Below are positions 18,900 to 20,566 of a stretch of DNA of 64,000 nucleotides, piece after piece. Numbering within the stretch: position 1 is the stretch's first letter; every line of letters begins with the position of its first letter. The notes below the pieces were generated by a model. It was not told the DNA's origin, ran no database searches, and was given only the letters and a program-made list of their open reading frames with translations. The DNA comes from Alphaproteobacteria bacterium (GTDB lineage Bacteria > Pseudomonadota > Alphaproteobacteria > Caulobacterales > Caulobacteraceae), in contig JANYET010000026.1 in assembly GCA_025359785.1 (NCBI GenBank), positions 143,767 through 207,766 of the forward strand, written 5' to 3'. The translations under genes and the position numbers were made by a program.

Positions 18900-19844
18900 T
18901 CAGTCCGATCCCCGCGGCTTGCGCCCACCGTGCAGCTGTCCGAACCGCCGGCGCATCGTGGCGAAGCGCCCCGCGTCGCCCGCCGCCGTCGCGCGCGTCG
19001 CCCTGCCGCCCAGTTCCAGCACCGCGTCCATCATCCGGTCGTCGCGCATCCGCTTGGCCCAGGCCACGTCCACGGCGAAGGCGCGGTCGGCCTTCAGCCA
19101 TTGCCGCAGGTTGGAGATATTCGGCGCGCCCGGCACGGTCATCGCCGCGCTGCGCACCGAGCCGCCGTCCTGGATATGGGCGACGATCGCGGCCAGCAAC
19201 GCCGGCGTCCGCCGCCGGGCCCGCCCCCGCACCCGAAAGCCGCTCCGATGCGCCAGCCGCAGCGCGCCGGCGAACTCCGGGTGGTCGCGGCGCCAGCGGG
19301 CCAGCGCGTCCTTGCCCGGCATGTCGGGGTCGGCCATCACCGCCGGCAGCACCTCGCCGCGCAGGACGCGAAGCACGATCAGGTCGGCGACCGCCTCGTC
19401 ATAGGGCCAACCCTTCTGGCGGCCCCAACCCTTCCGGCGTCCATGGAAACCCCGCGCCGACCACGCCGCCACCTTCAGGGCCGCATCGAAGTCCGGCCGC
19501 TCCCGTCGCCAGCGGTTCAACAACAGCCGCGTTGGCCCGGCCGGCCGTTTCACCAGGTCCTTCAGCGCCCCGCCCAGCCTGACCTTCACCAGCAAGGCCT
19601 CGGCCCGGTCCGCGTCGAACACCGGCCCCGCCGTCGCCGAGACCCGTATCCCCTTGCCCCAGGCCCGCGCGCGCGCCAGCCGCCGCGCGAACTCCGGATC
19701 GGCCTTGCCCCAGCTGTGCAACGTCTGCCGCTTCGGAAACCCTGGCTCCCGATCCAGCCCGCGCAACCCACACCCCGCCTCCAGCCGCGCGATCACCCGG
19801 TCCTGCATCTCGGCGCGCGGATAGGCGAACGGTGGAAAGCGCAT
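18900..19844 (-). CDS. Protein with four tandem helix-turn-helix-like (small-terminase-like) repeats
   Basis: Four ~58-aa units each ending in W-x3-[DR]-x-[EA]-F-x3-[LV]-x2-A: LHSWGKADPEFARRLARA, LNRWRRERPDFDAALKVA, LARWRRDHPEFAGALRLA, LRQWLKADRAFAVDVAWA. Confidence 0.6.
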   Translation of the reverse strand: MRFPPFAYPRAEMQDRVIARLEAGCGLRGLDREPGFPKRQTLHSWGKADPEFARRLARARAWGKGIRVSATAGPVFDADRAEALLVKVRLGGALKDLVKRPAGPTRLLLNRWRRERPDFDAALKVAAWSARGFHGRRKGWGRQKGWPYDEAVADLIVLRVLRGEVLPAVMADPDMPGKDALARWRRDHPEFAGALRLAHRSGFRVRGRARRRTPALLAAIVAHIQDGGSVRSAAMTVPGAPNISNLRQWLKADRAFAVDVAWAKRMRDDRMMDAVLELGGRATRATAAGDAGRFATMRRRFGQLHGGRKPRGSD

Positions 19845-19962
19845 CGCAGGATTGTACCGCCTTGACAGCAAAAGAACAAATAAAGAACATACGGTCTTGC
19901 GGCTCACGGCCAAATGTAAGGACTAACTTGACATACCGTAAGCTGATACCTTACATTCTTCC
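19845..19962. promoter_or_regulatory. Divergent promoter/operator region of higBA and the repeat protein
   Basis: Perfect 9-bp inverted repeat aatgtaagg (19913-19921) / ccttacatt (19949-19957); ttgaca at 19928-19933; minus-strand TACAAT (19851-19856) just before the 19844 start. Confidence 0.5.
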
Positions 19963-20241
19963 ATGATCCGGTCGTTCCGAAACAAAGGACTGGAGCGGTT
20001 CGCGACGACGGGAGACCCATCGCGCCTGAGTGTGCCGAACGCCGCTCGCGTGCGGCGCATCCTGGGCGCCCTCGATGTCGCCGGGACGCCGCAGCAGATG
20101 AATGTGCCGGGTTGGCGCTTCCATGCGCTGCAGGGTCAGGCCAAGGGCCGCTTCGCTGTCGATGCGAGCGGCAATTGGCGGATCACCTTCGGGTGGGACG
20201 AACACGACGCGATCGACGTCGATCTGGAAGACTATCACTGA
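19963..20241 (+). CDS. higB: HigB-type (RelE/ParE superfamily) toxin
   Basis: IRSFRNKGLERFATTGDPSRL..NAARVRRILGALDVAGTPQQMNVPGWRFHALQGQAKGRFAVDASGNWRITFGWDEHDAIDVDLEDYH. Confidence 0.9.
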   Translation: MIRSFRNKGLERFATTGDPSRLSVPNAARVRRILGALDVAGTPQQMNVPGWRFHALQGQAKGRFAVDASGNWRITFGWDEHDAIDVDLEDYH

Positions 20242-20254
20242 GAAAGCCCACCCC

Positions 20255-20566
20255 ATGACCGCCCCCACGCTCTTGACCGGCCTCGCCCCTGTCCATCCGG
20301 GAGAAATCCTCCGTGAAGATGTCCTGCCCGCCCTTGGCAAGTCCAAGGCCGAGATCGCCCGCGTCTTGGGAACCTCGCGCCAGAGCCTCTACGATCTGCT
20401 GGCCGAGAAACAGGGCGTGACGATCCCCATGGCGCTTCGCCTGGGAAAGATGTGCGGCAACGGCGGCCCGTTCTGGTTCGCGCTGCAAACCGCTTACGAC
20501 ATGCGCAAGGCGGAGACCGAACTGGCCGACGCCTTGGCGCGGATTCCAACGCTGACGGCGGCGTAG
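20255..20566 (+). CDS. higA: HigA-type XRE antitoxin
   Basis: VHPGEILREDVLPALGKSKAEIARVLGTSRQSLYDLLAEKQGVTIPMALRLGKMCGNGGPFWFALQTAYD. Confidence 0.92.
   Translation: MTAPTLLTGLAPVHPGEILREDVLPALGKSKAEIARVLGTSRQSLYDLLAEKQGVTIPMALRLGKMCGNGGPFWFALQTAYDMRKAETELADALARIPTLTAA

Follow-up and report, generated by a model that had tools for sequence, protein, structure and literature searches.

We have analyzed a stretch of 64,000 nucleotides (the window) from a genome of the genus Phenylobacterium and found a gene whose protein is composed of four tandem HTH units of the kind present in the small terminase subunit (TerS) of phages. Judging from the sequences compared here, the gene belongs to a TerS domain family that is present in several copies per genome, is kept by purifying selection and has a conserved LexA-type box at its promoter. 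The explanation that we prefer, with a probability of about 0.5, is that a phage TerS was domesticated, had its HTH duplicated and came under LexA repression, resulting in a damage-induced multivalent binder that would act on the host chromosome.

The Pfam family PF20901 (Sf6 terminase small subunit, TerS) matched the protein over four stretches (E 6.4e-29, 100.6 bits, the curated cut-off being 27 bits) and so did PHROG 1482 (TerS), also over four stretches (E 1.3e-31). NCBIfam gave no match, and the sequence search against the PDB produced chance-level hits only (best E 0.17). An earlier note on this DNA had described four tandem repeats resembling the phage small-terminase HTH; the repeats are real and the resemblance is borne out by both families. 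Its statement that there is no recognisable catalytic domain also seems right to us, and as it said there is no named family with four units, but the domain itself is a known one (PF20901). By the profile matches and the predicted fold, what is repeated in this protein is a domain known from phages, where it binds DNA, rather than an HTH of unknown type. It is as strongly basic as had been noted (net charge +32, pI 11.6), although units 1 to 4 carry just +4, +5, -2 and +2, so that much of the charge is located in the linkers and the tail. The protein very probably binds DNA, and the multi-site binding or bridging suggested in the note is the likeliest predicted activity, bridging being the more conjectural part. 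The note gave no strand and overlooked both the multi-copy family in Phenylobacterium and, 44 nt before the ATG, the LexA box, so that its interpretation was incomplete. The coordinates of all the features are collected in Table 1.

Table 1. Features of the tandem TerS-type gene and its surroundings (positions in the window; residues of the 314 aa protein)
Feature	Position	Strand	Basis and remarks
Tandem TerS-type HTH CDS, 314 aa	18900..19844	minus	ORF, ATG at 19844, stop codon 18900-18902; PF20901 in 4 stretches
HTH unit 1, residues 11-60	19665..19814	minus	Unit profile; AF2 helices 10-22, 27-32, 39-48, 50-71
HTH unit 2, residues 76-126	19467..19619	minus	Unit profile; AF2 helices 78-89, 94-99, 106-115, 117-141
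HTH unit 3, residues 148-198	19251..19403	minus	Unit profile; best Pfam stretch 148-200; AF2 helices 150-161, 166-171, 178-187, 189-209
HTH unit 4, residues 213-264	19053..19208	minus	Unit profile; AF2 helices 214-225, 230-236, 243-252, 254-281
C-terminal helical hairpin, residues 254-305	18930..19085	minus	AF2 helices 254-281, 284-305
LexA/SOS box GTTCTTTATTTGTTC	19874..19888	minus	Motif GTTC-N7-GTTC upstream of the window gene
Proposed -35 element TTGTTC	19874..19879	minus	Read from the sequence; inside the LexA box
Proposed -10 element TACAAT	19851..19856	minus	Read from the sequence; spacer of 17 bp to the -35, 6 nt to the ATG
higB-like toxin, divergent neighbour	19963..20241	plus	PF05015, E 5.7e-12; context, no shown part in the system
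higA-like antitoxin	20255..20566	plus	HTH_31/HTH_3 matches below the Pfam cut-off; position after higB; context

The AlphaFold2 (AF2) model of the window protein, calculated from an alignment of 35 four-unit proteins (mean pLDDT 89.1, pTM 0.53), consists of four repeats sharing one four-helix plan and then a helical hairpin. The earlier note had proposed such modelling as a check, and repeated HTHs were indeed obtained rather than one globular fold without repeats. The core of each unit measures ca. 50 aa, as in the repeats quoted there, but the pitch is 64-72 aa and not the ~58 aa given for the repeat. With a pTM of 0.53, the relative placement of the four units is not fixed by the model. When the folds were searched against the PDB, the Sf6 TerS structures were the top matches of the window protein, with a weak E value (0.12) and a probability of 1.00; they also came first, here with a good E value (3.7e-5), when one of the two-unit paralogues from this genome was searched. 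Phage TerS has a single N-terminal HTH per chain, against the four units found here, and the beta stalk is a feature of the TerS of the Sf6, P22, SF6 and PaP3 type. The two-unit members retain the oligomerisation helices, followed in their model by three strands, while the model of the window protein has no beta strands at all. The PF20901 match of the latter ends at profile position 78 of 106 and the end of the protein is truncated in some orthologues. The C-terminal hairpin of the model may well be a remnant of the TerS oligomerisation core, devoid of the beta stalk.

The search of the genus gave matches to the family in at least 59 of the 75 good Phenylobacterium genomes (at least 74 of all 101), and the richest genome had at least 13 match rows. 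In a carrier genome there are usually several copies, dispersed and standing alone, of two or four units each. In the window genome there are three further multi-unit paralogues (contigs C7, C13 and C42), together with a TerS-like gene of one unit (C33) and, again on C42, a fragment. The main multi-unit forms, counting the genes with enough upstream sequence, were those with two units and a TerS core (77) and those with four units (32). About a fifth of the good Phenylobacterium genomes lack the family, which is therefore not essential. None of the 77 two-unit genes had its best relative within the same genome, where 1.3 such cases would be expected at random, which makes the paralogues look like old, separate lineages. 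In the Caulobacteraceae outside Phenylobacterium mainly single-unit ORFs were found; one genome of another genus of the family (G432) has a divergent open frame of 380 aa (L243) that contains three weak units and lacks a LexA-type box, possibly a distant multi-unit relative. A 1.8 Mb genome from another order of the class (G120) gave ten PF20901 matches, all of them in short ORFs of single-unit size. The tblastn searches of plasmids and phages with the window protein gave no matches, and the tandem plan was not found in the viral contigs searched. No phage record covered 80% of the two-unit protein, the phage TerS proteins aligning to just one unit and the core.

The box upstream of the window gene begins 44 nt before the ATG. 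It corresponds to the SOS box of Caulobacter crescentus, GTTCN7GTTC (PMC9578287), and GTTCTTTATTTGTTC together with the preceding AT also fits the LexA consensus (T/A)TGTTC(N6)TGTTC (PMC13384398). A single box carries little weight, since the motif occurs 110 times in the window genome compared to 60 for the reversed control, and it is the conservation throughout the family that decides. We searched for exact GTTCN7GTTC within 400 nt upstream of the first unit and found it in 91 of the 113 multi-unit genes (27/32 with four units, 61/77 with two, 2/3 with three and 1/1 nominally with five). The same motif was present in only 1/23 single-unit genes and 5/328 other genes of the same loci, and the reversed motif preceded 4 of the 113. 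As the family genes share an ancestry, their counts should not be read as independent events; the two-unit genes do however represent separate lineages at different loci. There was a T before the second GTTC in 89 of 92 boxes and before the first in 74 of 92, neither being required by the search pattern, and their agreement with the published LexA consensus supports LexA control. Among the four-unit genes, 23 had a start that could be assigned, and in these the distance from box to ATG was 35-49 nt, mostly 44 or 47. No box was found for five four-unit genes (L108, L121, L064, L107 and L120). This family-wide pattern makes it highly probable that the window gene is under LexA control.

The proposed promoter elements (Table 1) place the -35 within the box and the -10 close to the ATG, from which LexA bound to the box would mask the -35 and the transcript would have almost no leader. 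In many two-unit genes a TTGAC sequence, similar to a -35, directly continues the box. In the window genome a box lies immediately upstream of the one LexA gene, and there are also boxes near uvrA, an AlkZ-like glycosylase gene and a ComM-like gene. We considered whether the box could be an element of the divergent higBA pair, the higBA of C. crescentus being LexA-repressed (PMC13384398). This was rejected, as the box is upstream of the probable -35 of higB, at a distance of ~40 bp, and orthologues that have no higBA keep the same spacing between box and HTH gene. Elsewhere in the window genome, four paralogues of ~198 aa (L210, L211, L222 and L223, at C35:53078, C35:85599, C64:7278 and C64:71414) each have a LexA-type box that extends into the region of the start (GTTC..TTTTGTTCATG), and the one checked had no Pfam match; by their sequences they are apparently another SOS-controlled paralogous family. 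Two related proteins of ~200 aa (L199 and L216, at C7:15257 and C50:100415) also lie directly behind LexA-type boxes, with no Pfam match for the one checked.

The window gene is flanked on one side by a serine hydrolase gene (adjoining a PAS histidine kinase) and on the other by the higBA pair, beyond which are TonB-like, ferredoxin and FAD-reductase genes; a DUF885 gene is also among the neighbours. A higBA-like pair is found beside two different family genes of this genome (window 19963-20566 and L051:9317-9964), which may be coincidence. The neighbourhood is partly common to the orthologues in other species (L053, L055, L056 and L066), and a second four-unit lineage has a conserved neighbourhood of its own (L059 and L063). 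We found no terminase, capsid or tail among the families listed for 99 neighbour proteins of 13 family genes (the best 25 of 41 for PHROG and the best 25 of 90 for Pfam), and no large terminase or phage morphogenesis gene among those listed for the genes adjoining the window gene. Neither was an integrase or replication island seen among its neighbours. In the neighbourhoods examined the family genes are, as judged from these annotations, stand-alone and chromosomal. A single PF03237 large terminase was found in the genome; it is located on a different contig, within a phage-like stretch, and has its own small TerS-like ORF beside it. This stretch (L230, C2:80000-99999) also contains a long tape-measure-like ORF, and an integrase-like ORF opens L231. 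Other observations concern genes close to family members. The two-unit gene on C13 (L049) adjoins apparent ruvA and ruvB genes and a probable ruvC, and GTTCN7GTTC occurs twice in the stretch. SRAP (SOS-response-associated peptidase) genes are found at L052:6206-7357, near a single-unit TerS-like gene, and at L063:7829-8608, near a four-unit gene.

To judge the ancestry of the units we used the nearest unit belonging to another class. Unit 2 of the two-unit proteins was nearest to single-unit TerS in 57 of 79 cases, unit 1 of the four-unit proteins to unit 1 of the two-unit ones (23/34) and unit 4 to their unit 2 (24/34). Units 2 and 3 of the four-unit proteins were often nearest to each other (18/34 and 14/34). 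The simplest history suggested by these relationships is that the N-terminal DNA-binding domain of a TerS was duplicated and an inner pair was inserted afterwards. The median pI was 6.3 with one unit, 9.5 with two and 11.1 with four. Across species the units cluster by position, indicating that the four-unit plan is ancient and stable, and the core of the recognition helix of unit 3 (RWRR) is conserved. The dN/dS values ranged from 0.24 to 0.61 in the ten closest pairs of four-unit genes and from 0.32 to 0.88 in the ten closest of two-unit genes. All the listed pairs stayed below 1, and by this measure the multi-unit family is under purifying selection.

In our preferred scenario, a phage TerS gene would have been domesticated in Phenylobacterium, its DNA-binding domain doubled to two units, the TerS core being retained, and later increased to the four units of the window gene with loss of the beta stalk. 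LexA would block the promoter by covering the -35 region, and upon DNA damage its removal would allow the protein to be made, probably from leaderless mRNA. In the TerS of Bacillus phage SF6, single HTHs bind DNA weakly and with little sequence specificity (PMC4737164), and specificity has been proposed to arise from the ring of HTHs together (PMC4737164; review PMC9611059). Four linked and individually weak HTHs, with their basic linkers, could bind duplex DNA multivalently, the covalent chain doing the job of the TerS ring with no need for a ring. The likeliest outcome would be that the protein acts on the damaged chromosome of the host as an architectural or a regulatory factor, compacting it, bridging it or controlling its genes. 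The target would be somewhat more probably host than phage DNA, since purifying selection acts on the four-unit gene, which is retained by vertical descent and has a very basic product, and the stalk is gone. On the other hand, the two-unit proteins keep the full TerS plan, which is not demanded of a host DNA binder and weakens this reading.

That plan would suit another possibility, in which SOS-induced TerS look-alikes act as decoys that occupy phage pac/cos DNA or co-assemble with the phage TerS and spoil packaging. The two-unit members have kept the core needed for co-assembly, and the TerS descent, the several diverged paralogues per genome and a LexA timing that coincides with prophage induction all point in the same direction. 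There is even a precedent in the SaPI operon I, which bears terS, interferes with the helper phage and is LexA-controlled (PMC5052747). However, the window protein lacks the stalk and matched no PADLOC model at E 0.1, the neighbours are ordinary housekeeping genes with no defence island seen, and the hypervariable recognition helices that an arms race would leave were discarded in view of the conserved unit 3. We therefore regard decoys as unlikely, although with a real chance. It is rather improbable that they would amount to a genus-wide, LexA-switched host defence, with several TerS-derived decoys per genome sabotaging the packaging of damage-induced phages. Alternatively, the four HTHs could read one long operator and the protein be an SOS-induced, sequence-specific transcription regulator of a downstream damage regulon. 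HTH arrays are able to read long sites, and here each unit has position-specific conservation in a basic protein, but the TerS-type HTHs studied bind with little specificity (PMC4737164), there is no ligand or signalling domain, and the search for a conserved target site was without success. A regulator of this kind seems to us unlikely too.

A working packaging TerS, serving a prophage, a satellite or a gene transfer agent (GTA), would account for the membership in PF20901 and PHROG 1482 and for the TerS plan of the two-unit members. We rejected it on the neighbours, which include no listed terminase, capsid or tail family, and on the lost stalk; moreover, the only PF03237 terminase found in the genome has its own TerS-like partner on another contig, and the phage records neither match the window protein nor cover 80% of a two-unit one. 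It is very improbable, and only the decay of a functionless prophage remnant appears even more so. The patchy presence of the family and the fast evolution of the two-unit members, with dN/dS reaching 0.88, would agree with a remnant, but the frames are open and the promoter and units are conserved in many species; purifying selection and promoter conservation, as read from the alignments, largely rule it out.

By Pfam and by fold, the DNA-binding domain is the same as that of gp1, the TerS of phage Sf6 (PF20901; PDB 3HEF and 4DYQ). Gp1 has one HTH per chain, forms a ring of eight with a beta stalk and is encoded in a packaging operon with TerL, while the window protein carries four HTHs and lacks the stalk, and its gene is preceded by a LexA box with no TerL in the vicinity. 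The TerS of SaPI/PICI elements (SaPI operon I) is likewise encoded by a LexA-repressed gene outside a complete phage, but it has one HTH and belongs to a mobile satellite with integrase and replication genes, of which no counterpart was seen at the window gene. The small terminase gp1 of the Rhodobacter capsulatus GTA (PMC6854486), likened here by its description, is also a chromosomal alphaproteobacterial TerS; it serves the GTA, and no GTA genes were seen around the window gene. Both published forms of the box of the C. crescentus LexA regulon fit the window box, and no TerS-type member of that regulon was found in the accessible literature. Nor did the open-access literature yield anything on TerS-type proteins in tandem, on an alphaproteobacterial SOS regulon that includes a TerS or on the SOS regulon of Phenylobacterium. 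The domain is thus known, and what appears to be new is the combination of tandem array, LexA control and expansion throughout the genus.

The domain annotation alone would say merely "terminase small subunit-like". It appears that a packaging adaptor of phages has here become part of the SOS response of a bacterium, a case apparently not described before, in which a covalent chain would replace the terminase ring of HTHs. It raises the question of whether multi-HTH terminase proteins appearing at DNA damage protect or reorganise the chromosome, or stop the packaging of prophages. The data also suggest that the LexA regulon of the Alphaproteobacteria has been extended in a way specific to this genus.
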